Source: Verrucomicrobiota bacterium
GTDB lineage: Bacteria; Verrucomicrobiota; Kiritimatiellia; SS1-B-03-39; UBA6053
Direction of reading: 5' to 3'
DNA: 64,000 bases
Assembly (NCBI GenBank): GCA_020831625.1
Contig: JAFIGD010000006.1
Location: forward strand, 1 to 64,000
Of this stretch, positions 2,096 through 9,859 are shown in pieces. Made by a program: the position numbers and the translations under genes. The notes beneath the pieces are model-generated. The model ran no database searches. It was not told the DNA's origin and saw only the letters and a list, made by a program, of their open reading frames with translations. Positions within the stretch are counted from its first letter, which is position 1, and each line of letters starts with the position of its first letter.

Positions 2096-3379
2096 GTGAT
2101 TGCCGCGGCCCTCCATGAACCGGAGACCCTGAAAGCCCTGCTCGGCGAACACCCCATGTTCGCCGCGGGGCTTTTGTTGATGTTGGGCTACTTCATCGGC
2201 AAACTCGCCGCCAAACTGAAACTCCCGGAGGTGACCGGGTACATTCTCGCCGGTCTGCTGGTGGGCGAATCGGTGACCGGGATTTTCCCGGCCAAGATGA
2301 ACGAGTCGTTCGCCATCATCACCGAAACCGCGCTCGGTCTCATCGCCCTGGCCATCGGGGTCGAATTCTCCAAATCCAAACTGCGCCGGATCGGCCGGGC
2401 CACCGTCCTGATCAATTTCACCCAGGTGACCGCCACGCTGGTGTTCGTCACCCTGGCACTGCTGCTGATGGGCATGGAGGCCCCCTTCGCCCTGTTGCTG
2501 GGCGCGGTGGCCACCACCACCGCCCCGGCCGCCTCCATGGCGGTCGCCCAGGCCATGCGGGCCCGCGGCAAATTCATCGATTATATTCACAGCGTCATCG
2601 CGCTGGGCGACGCCGGCTGTCTCCTACTGTTCGGACTGATTCTTTCCTTCACCGGCAAACTCATGGGCGCAACCAGCGACGGCTCCACCGATGTGATGTA
2701 CGCCCTCCGCGAGGTCGGTGTCTCGCTGCTGCTCGGTCTTGTGGGCGGCTTTGTGCTCCACCGCGTCACCCGCAACAAAAAAGGCCAGAACGAATTGCTG
2801 ATCCTCACCCTCGGGGTCATTTTCATGAGCACCGCCACCGCGATCATTTTCCACCTGTCCCCCCTGCTCTCCAACATGACCATGGGCTGCGTGCTCGTCA
2901 ACCTCTCCGCCCGCAATCACCGGCTGTTCCGAATTCTGGAGCCCGTCACCCCGCCGCTCTACGCCCTGTTTTTTGTGATTGCCGGAACGGAACTCAATCT
3001 GGAAGTCTTCACCCGCAAAGACCTCGCCCTCATGGGCGGCGTCTATATCCTCGTCCGGGCGCTGGGCAAATACTTCGGAGCCTGGGCGGGCTGCAAGCTC
3101 GGCGGCATTCAGGAGCCGATCCGCTCCAATCTGGGATGGTGCATGCTTCCACAGGCCGGGGTCGCTCTGGGCCTGGTGCTGCTCATTCAAACCTCGCCGG
3201 TGATGCAGCGCCTGTCCGAGTCCCAGGTGGGGGTGCTCAACGATATGGTCAATATTATCCTGATGTCGGTTTTTGTGAATGAACTGGTTGGACCGCCCCT
3301 GCTCAAAATGGCGATCCTCAAGGGCAATCAGGACCCGGATCCCGAAGACGAAGAGGAGAACGATCATGAATTTCTATGA
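2096..3379 (+). CDS. Cation:proton antiporter, CPA2/Kef type, membrane domain only
   Basis: Inner-membrane protein of 427 residues made almost entirely of hydrophobic helices (about 11-13 predicted by eye), resembling the monovalent cation:proton antiporter 2 (Kef/NapA-like) family. Family-like sequences include KLPEVTGYILAGLLVGES near the N terminus and the following glycine-rich helices. There is no TrkA-N/RCK nucleotide-binding domain; the protein ends in an acidic tail rich in Asp and Glu. The GTG at 2096 lies 6 bp after htpG; an ATG at 2157 is an alternative. Its last 14 nt overlap the EIIA-PII gene, which suggests that the separate downstream protein replaces the missing C-terminal regulatory domain. 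Substrate ion cannot be read from sequence. Confidence 0.9.
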   Translation: MIAAALHEPETLKALLGEHPMFAAGLLLMLGYFIGKLAAKLKLPEVTGYILAGLLVGESVTGIFPAKMNESFAIITETALGLIALAIGVEFSKSKLRRIGRATVLINFTQVTATLVFVTLALLLMGMEAPFALLLGAVATTTAPAASMAVAQAMRARGKFIDYIHSVIALGDAGCLLLFGLILSFTGKLMGATSDGSTDVMYALREVGVSLLLGLVGGFVLHRVTRNKKGQNELLILTLGVIFMSTATAIIFHLSPLLSNMTMGCVLVNLSARNHRLFRILEPVTPPLYALFFVIAGTELNLEVFTRKDLALMGGVYILVRALGKYFGAWAGCKLGGIQEPIRSNLGWCMLPQAGVALGLVLLIQTSPVMQRLSESQVGVLNDMVNIILMSVFVNELVGPPLLKMAILKGNQDPDPEDEEENDHEFL

Positions 3380-4187
3380 GATCACCTGCGAAGCCGCCTG
3401 CACGGCCAACATCCCCGCCCGCCACCGCGAAGATCTGCTGAAGGCCGCCGCCCACAAAGCCATGTCCGCGCCGGCCCTGAAGGCGCTCGGGGAGGACCGC
3501 ATCTACAATGCGCTGCTCGACCGTGAACACCAGGGCAGCACCGGTTTCGGCGGCGGCGCCGCGATCCCCCACGCCCGCTTCGACGAACTCGATGAATTCG
3601 TCCTGTTTATCGTCACCAGCCGGCATCCCATCGATTTCGAGGCGGTCGACAACAAAAAAGTCACCGTGTTTTTCATTCTCATCGGCCCCTCAAACGCGGT
3701 CAAAGAACACCTCAAGGCGCTCGCGGGCATCTCGACCGTCATCGCCAGAACCAATCTGGTGGCCGAACTCAAACTCGCGTCCGACGGGTCGGTGCTGTAC
3801 GAAAACTTTCTCAGCAAAACCCGGGACGAGAAACCCGCCAAGCTTCAGAAAAAACAGAAACTTCTCGTGGTGGTCCTCTACGAGGAGGACCGCTTTTACG
3901 ATCTGCTGGAGTATTTTCTCGAAGAGGGCATCGACGGGGCCACGGTGATCGACTCCATCGGCATGGGCAAATATATTTCCAATATTCCCCTGTTCTCCAG
4001 TTTCGTGAGCTTCATGAACGAGGACCACAACCAAAGCCGGACCATCATCGCCACCGTGCCCGAAAATCAGGTGGAGCAGATTGTCAACGGCATTGAGGAC
4101 ATCACCGGCGATCTCGACAAAACCCAGGGCGCGATGATCATGGTGCTGGACCTGGCCTTCACCAAAGGCTCCATGAAAATGATGTGA
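3366..4187 (+). CDS. PTS EIIA-like domain fused to a PII-like domain; probable antiporter regulator
   Basis: Soluble 273-residue protein. Residues 1 to about 150 resemble the fructose/nitrogen-type PTS EIIA domain, with the phosphorylation-site-like motif GGGAAIPHAR (candidate phospho-histidine H69). Residues from about 165 to the end have the strand-helix pattern of a PII/CutA-like fold: LLVVVLYEEDRFYDLLEYF, then EGIDGATVIDSIGMGKYI, and IIATVPENQVEQIV. The start at 3366 is set by GAGGAGAA upstream and overlaps the antiporter gene. No sugar-transport EIIB or EIIC is nearby. I infer that the protein senses phosphorylation state or a small ligand and gates the antiporter. The EIIA call is firm; the PII call is by visual similarity. 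Confidence 0.82.
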   Translation: MNFYEITCEAACTANIPARHREDLLKAAAHKAMSAPALKALGEDRIYNALLDREHQGSTGFGGGAAIPHARFDELDEFVLFIVTSRHPIDFEAVDNKKVTVFFILIGPSNAVKEHLKALAGISTVIARTNLVAELKLASDGSVLYENFLSKTRDEKPAKLQKKQKLLVVVLYEEDRFYDLLEYFLEEGIDGATVIDSIGMGKYISNIPLFSSFVSFMNEDHNQSRTIIATVPENQVEQIVNGIEDITGDLDKTQGAMIMVLDLAFTKGSMKMM

Positions 4188-4221: not shown

Positions 4222-5175
4222 TTAAATGTCTTTCCGGGGTTTGATCCGGAGTTCGGGGTGCACCGCCGCCACAAAGCTGTTCGCGGGAACCGATTCATTC
4301 AAAAACACGTTGGCGCCGATGGTGCTCCCGCTGCCGATCACCGTGTCCCCGCCCAGAATGGTGCTGTTGGCATAAATCACCACATCGCTCTCCACCGTGG
4401 GATGCCGCTTGACGTGCTTGATCGGCAGTCCGTTTTCGTCCAGGGGAAAACTTTTCGCGCCCAGGGTCACGCCCTGATAAATTTTCACCCGGTCGCCGAT
4501 CACCGTGGTTTCGCCCACCACCACTCCCGTGGCGTGATCGATGAAAAAACTTCGCCCCACGGTCGCGCCGGGATGCAGATCCACCCCCGTTTTGGCGTGG
4601 GTCCATTCGCTCATAATCCTCGGCACCACCGGGACATCCAGCCGGTACAGCTCGTGCGCGAGCCGGTGCGCCGCGATGGCCAGAAGCCCCGGATACGCCA
4701 ACTGCACCTCGGCATAGGTCAACGCCGCCGGATCCCCGTCATACGCCGCCCGGATATCATCAATCACAAATTCCCGAATACAGGGAAACGACCCGAAAAA
4801 AGCCTCCAGAATCCTCTGGGATTCGGCGCGGACATCCAGACCGGAAGGCATCTCCCCCTCGGTCATGGCCGCCCGTCCGTACCAGCGGAACGGCAGACTG
4901 CGCTCAATCTGAGGGCGGAGATGCCGCCAGGCGTGGCTTAACCGGCGCAATAAAAAAACGCTGAATTCATCGATGCCGATGCTGCCAGGATTCATCCGGC
5001 CCGGCAAAAGCAGGTCGATCAACATCCGCAAGGCCGAAACCACCTCGGCGGGATCGGGATAATCCGACAGGATATTCTCCGGAAGATCCTCGGCGGCATC
5101 CTGATACAGGGGATGCAGGCGGCGGACGGTGTCATATAAAAACTGGCTGGGCTGATCGTGTTCATTCTGCGTCAT
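4222..5175 (-). CDS. cysE: Serine O-acetyltransferase
   Basis: Acetyl-CoA-dependent acetylation of L-serine to O-acetylserine, the first step of cysteine synthesis; the partner cysK lies at 17309-18241. The protein has 317 residues: an alpha-helical N-terminal region (to about 190) and a left-handed beta-helix of hexapeptide repeats. Conserved sequences GVDLHPGATVGRSFFIDHAT and GVVVGETTVIGD include the catalytic-type histidines. The start ATG at 5175 has AGGAT upstream; the much longer upstream open frame is antisense to the next gene and is not real. It is divergent from the hydrolase at 5254 with about 80 bp between them, which should hold both promoters. Confidence 0.93.
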   Translation of the reverse strand: MTQNEHDQPSQFLYDTVRRLHPLYQDAAEDLPENILSDYPDPAEVVSALRMLIDLLLPGRMNPGSIGIDEFSVFLLRRLSHAWRHLRPQIERSLPFRWYGRAAMTEGEMPSGLDVRAESQRILEAFFGSFPCIREFVIDDIRAAYDGDPAALTYAEVQLAYPGLLAIAAHRLAHELYRLDVPVVPRIMSEWTHAKTGVDLHPGATVGRSFFIDHATGVVVGETTVIGDRVKIYQGVTLGAKSFPLDENGLPIKHVKRHPTVESDVVIYANSTILGGDTVIGSGSTIGANVFLNESVPANSFVAAVHPELRIKPRKDI

Positions 5176-5253
5176 ACCGTAAATCCTAGCGGCACGGAAG
5201 AGAACTGTCCACTTTTGATTCCATCCTTTTTTGAAATCGGCTATAGCGTTCCC

Positions 5254-6615
5254 ATGTCCTCCGCCGCATCCACTTCCGGGATTCTGAACCGCGTCCGCAG
5301 CACCGTCCTGGCCACTGCCGCGGGCTTTCCGCGCGAATCCGAGATCCACTCCCTGCGCGGGCGCCTGACCCCGGCCCTGGAACGCGGCTATTTCACGCCG
5401 TCCGAAGATGAACAGATCCGGGAACTCTACGCCCGCTATCTCCACGCCCGCACCGCGCTCTATCTCTCTCTCGAAGAGCTCCGCAAACAGCTCCCCCGGT
5501 GGCACCGCGCCAAAAACCCCGAAGCGGTTCAGGCTTTTCTCCTGGGATGGACCTCGGGTTGCATCCTCATGCGGGCCGCACGCTATCTGGTGACCGAATT
5601 TTACCCGTCCCCCGCTCTCCGGAAACTCCTCAACGAGGCCGAACCCCGTTACGGAATTCCCGAAGGCAGTCTCGATCAGATCTATCGCACCGCCACCCAT
5701 CCGCTGGTGTTGCTGCGCTTTCTTCACGCCGCCCGCTTTGCGGAACGGCATGCCGATCAAATCGAGGCGCTCAGGGACTGTGCCGAATATACCGGCATCC
5801 TCGAACTCCTGGATCAAGAACAGGCCTTTATCGAACGGCAGACCCGTAAACATGCCCGCGCCCTGCTTGAAAACCGCTGGAGCCGCCTGCGCGCGAAGCC
5901 CGGCCTGACCTATCAGCGGATCATGTGGGAAATTTTTGAAACCTCCGGCCGCGCCATCGCCGAAATGCGGAATCCGTTTCACCGCAAACGGGTCACCCGC
6001 AAAATCCGCCGCCAGGTTTCCGAGGTTCTTCAACCCGGTGATATTCTGATTACCCGCCACGACGACGCGCTCAGCAATCTCTTTCTCCCCGGCTTCTGGC
6101 CCCATTCGGCCCTGATCATCGGTCACACCGGGCAACGCGAGGCCCTCGGCATCCAAGTCGATTCCCGGCGCCGGCTCGCCGCCCGGCCGCCCCTGTGTGT
6201 TCTGGAGGCCAAAAAAGACGGCGTCCGCTTCCGCTCCCTGCGTGAAACCCTCCGGGTGGACGCTTTTGTTCTCCTCCGCCCCCGCACACTCAGCGAAAGT
6301 GATCTGAAATCGGTTATCGAACGCGCCTTTTCCCATGAAGGGAAACTGTATGACTTCAGCTTCGATTTCACCCGCGCCGACCGTCTCGTCTGCACCGAAG
6401 TCATCTACCGCAGTTTTGAAGGGTTCGGCGATATCGCCTTCACCTTGCGGCGCCGGGCGGGACGCTTCACCCTCTCCGCCGAGGATCTTCTCCGGCAAAG
6501 CCTCCAAACGAACCTGTTTGATGTGGTCCTGCTCTACGGAATTCCCGGAAATCACATCTTCAGCGGCGAGCGGGCCCGACAAATTTTACTGAGATCCCTA
6601 TCTATGATACAATAA
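5254..6615 (+). CDS. YiiX/YebB-like NlpC/P60-family cysteine hydrolase
   Basis: Protein of 453 residues. The first 250 or so residues are helical and basic without a recognised domain. The C-terminal part has the circularly permuted NlpC/P60 (YiiX) pattern: QPGDILITRHDDALS, then FWPHSALIIG with the candidate catalytic His, and later DRLVCTEVIYRSF with the candidate Cys. Members of this family are predicted amidases or acyltransferases acting on peptides or lipids. The ATG at 5254 begins MSSAAST; an in-frame upstream ATG at 5158 would overlap cysE. No signal peptide is evident, so a cytoplasmic location is likely. A 6-bp inverted repeat (GATACA-ATAA-TGTATC, 6606-6621) spans the stop codon. Confidence 0.8.
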   Translation: MSSAASTSGILNRVRSTVLATAAGFPRESEIHSLRGRLTPALERGYFTPSEDEQIRELYARYLHARTALYLSLEELRKQLPRWHRAKNPEAVQAFLLGWTSGCILMRAARYLVTEFYPSPALRKLLNEAEPRYGIPEGSLDQIYRTATHPLVLLRFLHAARFAERHADQIEALRDCAEYTGILELLDQEQAFIERQTRKHARALLENRWSRLRAKPGLTYQRIMWEIFETSGRAIAEMRNPFHRKRVTRKIRRQVSEVLQPGDILITRHDDALSNLFLPGFWPHSALIIGHTGQREALGIQVDSRRRLAARPPLCVLEAKKDGVRFRSLRETLRVDAFVLLRPRTLSESDLKSVIERAFSHEGKLYDFSFDFTRADRLVCTEVIYRSFEGFGDIAFTLRRRAGRFTLSAEDLLRQSLQTNLFDVVLLYGIPGNHIFSGERARQILLRSLSMIQ

Positions 6616-7356: not shown

Positions 7357-8283
7357 TCAGAATGCGCCGAAAAAGATTGAGCTGAACGTGGTGATCGGCG
7401 AAGTCTCCCGGAAGTCATCCAGTGTCGCCCGGGCCTCATCCACCAAAGACTCCACTTTGCGGTAAAGCACATCCTCGGTCATTAACAGGGTCAACGTTCC
7501 CTGTTCCTCGGTCAACCGTTCCGTAAACTCCCGAAGGCCGGCAATCGTGGCGCTGAGATCCTCATAAAGTTGCGCATCCGAACTCAACAGTTTGCCCACC
7601 GTGCCTTCTCCCTGCTCTATCCGGGAGAACACCCGTTTGGCATCCGCCGAAACCTCATTGAAGTTCTCGGTAAGGGCTAACAATTGGTCGTGCAGAGCTG
7701 AATCGTTGATCAGCCGGGCGATCGTCCCCTCCCCTTGATCCACTTTTTCGGAAATGGCGCGTAAATTGCCGGTGAAGCCCTGGATATCCTCCAGAATCCC
7801 GCCGTCCACAAGGGCCTCTCGGATCAAATGAATGGTCTGGGTGGCCTCATCAAGGAGATTGGTCACCGGCTGGCCTTTGAGGGCGGCATAGCCCTCCTCC
7901 GGCAACAGCGGGCGGGATTCGGATCCCTCATCCACCAGAAGCCGCATCCCCCCCAACATCGAGGAGGGTTCAATGATAAATCGATAATCCTCATGCAGCT
8001 CCACCGAACGGGTCAGGCGGAGCTTTAAATTCACGCCCCGCCCGCTGCTCGGCACATTGATTTCGTTGACATTTCCGATCTGCACCCCGCGCATAAACAC
8101 CGGCTCCCCGTTGCGGAGGCCGCCGATATTCTCGAAATGCACATCCAGAAAATAAGCCCGCTCAAAAAAGCGGTTCTGACTGATCACCAGGGTCAGGGTC
8201 AACAGCACCACCAGAATCACAAACATAAAAGCGCCCACCACAATTTCGGTGGTCACATCACTACGGCGTTTTTTGGAACTCAT
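7357..8283 (-). CDS. mlaD: MlaD-family (MCE domain) lipid-transport substrate-binding protein
   Basis: Periplasmic, membrane-anchored lipid-binding subunit of an Mla-type ABC transporter. The 308-residue protein has one N-terminal transmembrane helix (about 15-37), an MCE domain (about 40-120, including the family-like GLRNGEPVFMRGVQIGNV), then a long helical, coiled-coil-rich tail. The tail is longer than in E. coli MlaD (183 aa) and resembles longer MCE proteins of other phyla. It is the last gene of the operon and overlaps mlaF by 4 nt. It would move phospholipids between inner and outer membrane together with MlaE and MlaF. Confidence 0.93.
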   Translation of the reverse strand: MSSKKRRSDVTTEIVVGAFMFVILVVLLTLTLVISQNRFFERAYFLDVHFENIGGLRNGEPVFMRGVQIGNVNEINVPSSGRGVNLKLRLTRSVELHEDYRFIIEPSSMLGGMRLLVDEGSESRPLLPEEGYAALKGQPVTNLLDEATQTIHLIREALVDGGILEDIQGFTGNLRAISEKVDQGEGTIARLINDSALHDQLLALTENFNEVSADAKRVFSRIEQGEGTVGKLLSSDAQLYEDLSATIAGLREFTERLTEEQGTLTLLMTEDVLYRKVESLVDEARATLDDFRETSPITTFSSIFFGAF

Positions 8284-9050
8284 TTCAGAATCCTTTCAGG
8301 AAAATCATCAAAAAAATCGGGGTTAATGCACTGGGAATCGAGAAATCCCCGCACAATTTCATTCTTCGAATGCAGAAACTCACGGGGCGGGGTGACTTCC
8401 AGCACGGTGCCCTGATGCAGCATGGCGATCCGGTCGGAAATCGTCAGAGCGCTGATCATATCGTGCGTCACCACCACACTGGTCACACCCAGGTCCTTCT
8501 GCAAGGTGAAAATCAGTTCATCAATTGTGCGGGACGTCACCGGATCCAGACCCGAGGTCGGCTCGTCATACAGCAGAATATCCGGTTCCGTGACCACCGC
8601 CCGGGCCAGCCCCGCCCGTTTCTGCATCCCCCCGGAGATATCCGCCGGCAACTTTTCCGCAGCCTCCTCCAGCCCCACTTTCGCCAGCACGCTTTCCACC
8701 CGCTCATGAATTTCAGATTCCGGAAATTTTCCGTTTTCGCGGAGCGGCAACGCCACATTTTCAAACACCGTCAGCCACTGCAGCAACGCCGCGCTTTGAA
8801 AGAGATATCCGAACCGCTTGCGGACCTCCTCCAGTTCGCGTCCGTCCAGTTCGTTGATATTGATGCCGTCAATCACCACCTCGCCCTCCGTGGCCTTCAA
8901 TAAACGGACCATATGTTTCAACGTCACGCTTTTTCCGGCCCCCGAGGTTCCCACCAGGGAGATCGTTTCGCCGGGATGCACATGAAGATTAAACCCGCGC
9001 AACACGGGTTTTTCTCCGAACACCTTAATCACATTGTTGAAGCGAATCAT
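8280..9050 (-). CDS. mlaF: MlaF-like ABC transporter ATP-binding protein
   Basis: Cytoplasmic ATPase of 256 residues powering the Mla lipid transporter. It shows Walker A (GTSGAGKSVTLKH), Q-loop, the ABC signature (DISGGMQKRAGLARA) and Walker B (PDILLYDEPTSGLDPVT), all typical of the MlaF/MKL subfamily. The start ATG at 9050 overlaps the mlaE stop by 4 nt, and its end overlaps mlaD by 4 nt, so the three genes are translationally coupled. Confidence 0.95.
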   Translation of the reverse strand: MIRFNNVIKVFGEKPVLRGFNLHVHPGETISLVGTSGAGKSVTLKHMVRLLKATEGEVVIDGININELDGRELEEVRKRFGYLFQSAALLQWLTVFENVALPLRENGKFPESEIHERVESVLAKVGLEEAAEKLPADISGGMQKRAGLARAVVTEPDILLYDEPTSGLDPVTSRTIDELIFTLQKDLGVTSVVVTHDMISALTISDRIAMLHQGTVLEVTPPREFLHSKNEIVRGFLDSQCINPDFFDDFPERILK

Positions 9051-9859
9051 CCGTAAAACAGTTTGGTGAGAATGAACCCGGTGATGAGAATCACCAGGAA
9101 GGAGGTGACCACGGTCTGACGCGTGGCCCGGCCCACGCCCACCGCGCCGCCGGTGGTGGCGAAACCGGTATGGCACGCCACGGTGCAAATAATCGCCCCG
9201 AAGCAAAACGCCTTGAACAGCCCCGTATAAAGATCCTTCACATCCGCATACTGCACCGCGTTGTCCAAATACGCCTGCGGATCAATTCCAAGCTGGGTGA
9301 ACCCGATGATCGCCCCGCCGGCCACCGCCAGCACATCGGTGTATAAGGTCAGCAGCGGCATCATTACCAGGAGAGCCACCAGCCGAGGCATCACCAGATA
9401 TCGAATCGGGTCAATCGACATAATCTCCAGCGCCGCGATCTCCTCGCTCACAGTCATGGTCCCCAACTGCGCGGAGATACTGGACCCCACGGACGCCGCG
9501 ATGATCAAACCGGTCATAAACGGCCCCATTTCCCGAAGCATCACCACCGTCACCGCGCCGCCCACCTGCACCTCCTGACCGAACCGGGCCAGCTCCATTC
9601 CCGTCTGCACCGCGAAAATCATCCCCGTGAACAGCGCCACCACACTCAGCACCGGCAGACTTTTGATCCCGGTGAAAAAAAGCTGATAAACCACTTCGGC
9701 CCGGTTTCGTTTCCCGAACATCAGCGGAATATACAGGATCGCTTTGAGCGTCATCAGCACCGCCTGACCCACCTGTTGCATGAAAAACAGACCGTTATAG
9801 CCCCAGCGGGCGAACAGGCTGTTGCAGGTTGGACATTGATAAGGTTCGCGGGTAATCAT
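9047..9859 (-). CDS. mlaE: MlaE-like ABC transporter permease
   Basis: Integral membrane permease of 270 residues, MlaE family. It contains the conserved GMIFAVQTGMELARFGQE region, GPFMTGLIIAASVGSSISAQ and the EEIAALEIMSIDPIRYLVMP segment. The first 25 residues include a CPTC pair not usual in E. coli MlaE, perhaps a short cytoplasmic metal-binding or redox-sensitive extension. It overlaps the upstream W/F-P repeat gene by 4 nt, an unusual partner for an mla operon. Confidence 0.94.
   Translation of the reverse strand: MITREPYQCPTCNSLFARWGYNGLFFMQQVGQAVLMTLKAILYIPLMFGKRNRAEVVYQLFFTGIKSLPVLSVVALFTGMIFAVQTGMELARFGQEVQVGGAVTVVMLREMGPFMTGLIIAASVGSSISAQLGTMTVSEEIAALEIMSIDPIRYLVMPRLVALLVMMPLLTLYTDVLAVAGGAIIGFTQLGIDPQAYLDNAVQYADVKDLYTGLFKAFCFGAIICTVACHTGFATTGGAVGVGRATRQTVVTSFLVILITGFILTKLFYG

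Follow-up and report, generated by a model that had tools for sequence, protein, structure and literature searches.

The window, a stretch of 64,000 nucleotides from contig JAFIGD010000006.1 of a Verrucomicrobiota bacterium, carries near its start a gene for a cation/proton antiporter of the Na_H_Exchanger family and, overlapping it on the same strand, a gene for a protein that joins an EIIA domain to a PII-like domain. The antiporter gene (2096..3379, forward strand) starts at GTG 2096, stops at 3379 and encodes 427 amino acids, which were assigned to the family by Pfam PF00999 (E = 5.2e-32, residues 32-403) and by alignment with relatives. PF00999 is the sole Pfam domain above threshold, and no RCK, CBS, EIIA or other cytosolic domain was found among the above-threshold Pfam matches, in agreement with the initial annotation, which had described an antiporter devoid of an RCK or other nucleotide-binding domain; absence of RCK is not unusual in this antiporter superfamily. 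With regard to the CPA2 placement given in the initial annotation, KefB is the top match among the NCBIfam models, with an E-value of 1.4e-9 that lies far under its cut-off, and a CPA1 model is also matched weakly. The transmembrane aspartate of the ion site, D172, is located in an ALGDA motif and is invariant in 26 sequences, as would fit an active antiporter. The residue that precedes it varies across the same sequences (G, D, L, T, S and an M-D context), being glycine in the lineage of the window antiporter and aspartate in other lineages, and for this reason ion choice and electrogenicity may differ among members.

The fusion gene (3366..4187, forward strand; 273 amino acids) shares 14 bp with the antiporter gene, an overlap already noted in the initial annotation. 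Its mechanically called reading frame opens further upstream, at ATG 3279, and would yield 302 amino acids; this start was discarded in favour of ATG 3366, which is preceded at a distance of 7 nt by an AGGAG ribosome-binding sequence placed within the 3' end of the antiporter gene (3354..3358, forward strand) and corresponds to a first methionine that is nearly invariant in 26 homologues. Scans for promoters and terminators, as well as for downstream RNA folds, gave no useful signal. The neighbouring genes, which encode a serine acetyltransferase-like hexapeptide protein (4222-5205, reverse strand), a Peptidase_C92 (YiiX-like) protein (5158-6615, forward strand) and an MlaD/ABC lipid-transport pair (7357-9206, reverse strand), lie outside the module.

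The N-terminal half of the fusion is an EIIA-Ntr (PTS_EIIA_2) domain (3411..3803, forward strand), matched by PF00359 over residues 16-146 with an E-value of 2.4e-22. A model of the whole protein was calculated with AlphaFold2 from an input of 26 homologues (mean pLDDT 87), and the solved structures closest to its EIIA domain are PtsN proteins, among them PtsN from E. coli (1a6j), with a Z-score of 21.9 and an r.m.s.d. of 1.9 over 149 residues. R53, H69 and H115 of the fusion align with R57, H73 and H120 of E. coli PtsN and thus reproduce the full active-site triad, as expected from the intact phosphohistidine motif proposed at the outset; the putative phospho-acceptor H69 is encoded at 3570..3572 (forward strand). 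Among the fusion homologues R53 and H69 are conserved in 26 of 26 sequences and H115 in 25. The score against the PtsN equivalog model TIGR01419 (87.2 bits) is under the curated cut-off of 138.7.

The C-terminal half (residues 164-273; 3855..4184, forward strand) was suspected from the beginning to be PII-like, and both profile and predicted fold bear this out. The Pfam P-II model PF00543 is matched with an E-value of 1e-3 by the whole fusion and of 1.5e-4 by the isolated domain, whose score of 22.5 compares with a gathering score of 25, and the PII-like domains of ten out of 16 relatives also match at E-values of up to 1. From residue 164 onwards the model displays the beta-alpha-beta-beta-alpha-beta arrangement of the PII fold, and the comparison of residues 164-273 with known structures, the check proposed for this domain, retrieved GlnK, PII, PotN and PstA, with Z-scores of 12.4 to 2v5h_J, 12.3 to 1gnk_B and 12.2 to PotN (7o4x); the Foldseek list includes 4wk1 and 4d3h. 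Profile-profile comparison (hhalign) of 29 PII-like members with canonical PII proteins of the same phylum gave an E-value of 2.9e-5 over 93 columns. A chance match between ferredoxin-like folds was ruled out by the sequence profile, the profile-profile comparison and two separate models.

Residues Q39, K58, K90, R101 and R103 are invariant in 16 canonical PII proteins from the phylum. In the fusion domain Q39 corresponds to Y203 and K90 to a methionine, while the region of R101 and R103 is unaligned. Judged by its sequence, the C-terminus is PII-like and not a canonical GlnB/GlnK PII, since key ligand residues and the canonical T-loop are replaced. The T-loop position (3972..4004, forward strand), identified from the homologue alignment and the model, carries instead a Y-I-S-x-I/M-P-L-F-x-S-F motif, of which P208 and L209 are invariant in all 26 fusions; this region was modelled with short helices at low confidence (pLDDT of about 59).

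The genomic surroundings of the fusion were surveyed in loci gathered with the fusion itself as query and with a PII-like profile, independently of the antiporter, and 47 loci had retrievable surroundings. These loci are mutually related, so that the counts do not represent independent events: the antiporter gene adjoins the fusion in 44, preceding it in 25 and following it in 19. Of the three exceptions, two are located at contig ends and one is flanked by another transporter, and fusion homologues with readable neighbourhoods are therefore accompanied by an antiporter in 44 of 45 cases. An accidental association with the antiporter was ruled out by this census. The two gene orders coincide with two sequence groups in the 26-sequence alignment, indicating that the antiporter-fusion pair has been kept through rearrangement. 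An HtpG gene lies upstream of the pair in the window and beside only one of 12 relatives checked, and thus it is the antiporter to which the fusion is specifically linked; HtpG was consequently rejected as a member of the system. The PII-like domain was found in 43 of 345 genomes of the class searched; in the search for cases outside the phylum, a single scan of genome contigs returned close relatives only, and plasmid records contributed a single distant PII-like case (L088, Subdoligranulum).

At the one readable exception (L055:3706-5852), the neighbour of the fusion is a permease of the APC family, most similar to arginine/agmatine and polyamine antiporters, and not a Na_H_Exchanger protein. 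PotN, retrieved in the structural comparison of the window domain, is a PII-like protein as well.

The two halves of the fusion also occur as separate genes. Three adjacent genes encode EIIA, antiporter and PII-like protein at L064, and one of the L057 clusters has the same arrangement. In eight operons for the Mrp Na+/H+ antiporter (L083, L084, L085 and L175-L179), all from genomes of the class to which the window belongs, EIIA-like and PII-like genes are inserted between MrpG and MrpB, so that an unrelated cation/H+ antiporter appears to use the same pair. The predicted structure of one Mrp-linked PII-like protein has the PII fold and matches PII and SbtB, and the P-L-F element of the T-loop motif is also present in these relatives. 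In the Mrp-linked EIIA proteins a histidine is retained where the phosphate would be accepted (VHAR in L083 and L085), but the equivalent of H120 is a tyrosine, which makes their phosphorylation doubtful. At L180 and on the Subdoligranulum plasmid record the antiporter gene has only a PII-like gene in front of it, and the PII-like protein of the plasmid record passes the Pfam P-II cut-off. The dense cluster at L057:787-7878 comprises CBS, EIIA, an ArsB/CitMHS-type transporter, EIIA, antiporter, PII-like protein, an EIIA-PII fusion and a second antiporter, which suggests that EIIA also partners transporters of other families.

Enzyme I is represented in the host genome by a single protein that, like PtsP, begins with a GAF domain; two HPr proteins, HPr kinase and nine EIIA_2 domains are encoded as well. 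No PF02378 sugar permease was found in it by a profile search limited to that family, in which a control set was detected as expected; with PTS proteins present and such a permease missing, the PTS of the host looks regulatory. A different reading would assign the EIIA domain to a sugar PTS, as the A component specific to some permease, with the antiporter as an incidental neighbour. PF00359 does include fructose and mannitol EIIA domains, but in view of the missing PF02378 EIIC and of PtsN proteins as top structural matches this origin is extremely improbable. Four further Na_H_Exchanger antiporters of the host (G000 C13, C59 and C53; L184, L188, L189 and L190) carry an EIIA domain at the C-terminus of the same chain, and EIIA control of antiporters therefore looks general in this organism, the added PII-like domain being the distinctive part of the window system. 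The two antiporters on C53 also bear a Usp domain, and their EIIA matches are weak and partial. EIIA domains were additionally found fused to an excisionase-like helix-turn-helix (HTH_17; G000 C61:712-1939 and C2:60609-61028, L009 and L187), possibly forming PTS-controlled transcription factors. A c-di-AMP cyclase and, elsewhere in the genome, a canonical PII are also encoded.

EIIA-Ntr proteins have many partners. Together with the nine EIIA domains of the host, this would be compatible with a fusion that conveys PTS output to gene expression or metabolism and shares an operon with the antiporter merely through a common stress response. The pairing, however, persists where the gene order is inverted or the fusion is split, and it recurs in Mrp operons; renewed use next to an unrelated antiporter would not be expected from co-expression alone, and this reading is accordingly regarded as quite unlikely.

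The reading that we favour, with a probability of roughly two in three (0.68), is that the fusion acts as a two-input adaptor, gating the adjacent cation/H+ antiport through PTS phosphorylation and a ligand of its PII-like domain. The fusion would then be the cytosolic regulatory subunit of the antiporter which, having no regulatory domain of its own, would receive both inputs from it. The GAF-containing Enzyme I and HPr would phosphorylate EIIA at H69, as the conserved residues suggest, and the phosphorylation state would alter the docking of EIIA on the antiporter, much as YcgO is silenced by PtsN in its unphosphorylated form. The PII-like domain, probably oligomeric, may touch the antiporter or EIIA through the PLF-containing T-loop region, and a small ligand could release or tighten this contact, as in GlnK/AmtB and SbtB/SbtA. 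Several points count against the adaptor. PII proteins usually form trimers, whereas these antiporters are dimeric, which creates a symmetry mismatch that is absent in SbtA-SbtB and AmtB-GlnK, and the fusion at L055 pairs with an arginine/polyamine-type antiporter of the APC family instead. The low confidence of the modelled T-loop and the tyrosine at the H120 equivalent of the Mrp-linked EIIA also weigh against it.

The initial annotation had tied ion transport to PTS phosphorylation and to a nucleotide or metabolite signal. The link of the fusion to antiporters is supported by the 44 of 45 pairings, and the PTS part by the regulatory appearance of the host PTS and by the PtsN-YcgO precedent, while 'nucleotide or metabolite' as the nature of the ligand is a guess, given the replaced and unaligned canonical residues. 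Cation homeostasis is a known theme of c-di-AMP signalling. As PstA and SbtB bind c-di-AMP or adenine nucleotides and the host encodes a c-di-AMP cyclase, these compounds are the first candidate ligands. The same replacement of Q39 and K90 and the unaligned R101/R103 region would also be expected if only the EIIA half regulated the antiporter and the PII-like domain were a ligand-free scaffold for oligomerization or for docking on a membrane protein. EIIA alone on antiporters is indeed common in the host genome, and known ligand residues are absent in some PII-like domains, such as BB0017 (PMC6516651). On the other hand, a PII-like gene accompanies antiporters without any EIIA at L180 and L088, and the PLF motif of the T-loop belongs to the best conserved stretches of the domain, suggesting a function of its own; a pure scaffold thus seems rather unlikely, without being negligible.

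Taken beyond the window, the two-input adaptor could represent a portable control module of both Na_H_Exchanger and multisubunit Mrp antiporters, in which EIIA and PII-like proteins integrate the phosphorylation state of the PTS with the signal of a small molecule, c-di-AMP and adenine nucleotides being possibilities; to this generalization we assign even odds. EIIA-Ntr and PII are two classic bacterial signals of carbon and nitrogen status, combined here on one polypeptide that appears to be dedicated to an ion pump and would link pH and Na+/K+ balance to the energy and nutrient state of the cell. Most carrier genomes belong to uncultured organisms, for which a regulator that has an evident partner and lends itself to experiment is of value, and the reuse beside Mrp pumps offers two unrelated systems for studying one mechanism as well as defined candidates with which to look for a new PII-like ligand. 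In the open-access literature searched, neither an EIIA-PII fusion nor an EIIA and PII-like pair in an Mrp operon nor a PII-like partner of this antiporter family was found described, a result that does not prove novelty.

The individual elements have precedents, EIIA control of an antiporter in PtsN-YcgO and PII-like control of transporters in SbtB; their combination was not found in the literature searched. In E. coli, unphosphorylated PtsN binds and silences the K+/H+ antiporter YcgO (PMC11808508). The window system resembles this pair in having an EIIA-Ntr domain with the same triad, a monovalent cation/proton antiporter as partner and a GAF-type Enzyme I, but the window antiporter is bare whereas YcgO is equipped with putative RCK and CorC domains, and the window EIIA shares its chain with a PII-like domain and has its gene next to that of the antiporter, whereas PtsN stands alone as a single-domain protein (PMC11808508). 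The antiporters with EIIA on the same chain (G000 C13 and C59; L044) likewise tie EIIA to a Na_H_Exchanger protein, but lack the PII-like domain, the regulator in the window being a separate two-domain protein. SbtB contacts SbtA through its loop. As in SbtB-SbtA, where SbtB is the PII-like partner of a bicarbonate transporter (PMC8352866), and in GlnK-AmtB, a PII-fold protein is encoded beside a transporter in the window, and a T-loop contact may be envisaged; in contrast to both, the window domain has its canonical ligand residues and T-loop replaced, is fused to EIIA and is partnered with a cation/H+ antiporter. The c-di-AMP-binding PII-like proteins PstA and DarA (PMC4316997), likened to the window domain by overall fold and present among its Foldseek matches (4wk1 and 4d3h), differ from it in occurring without fusion to EIIA.
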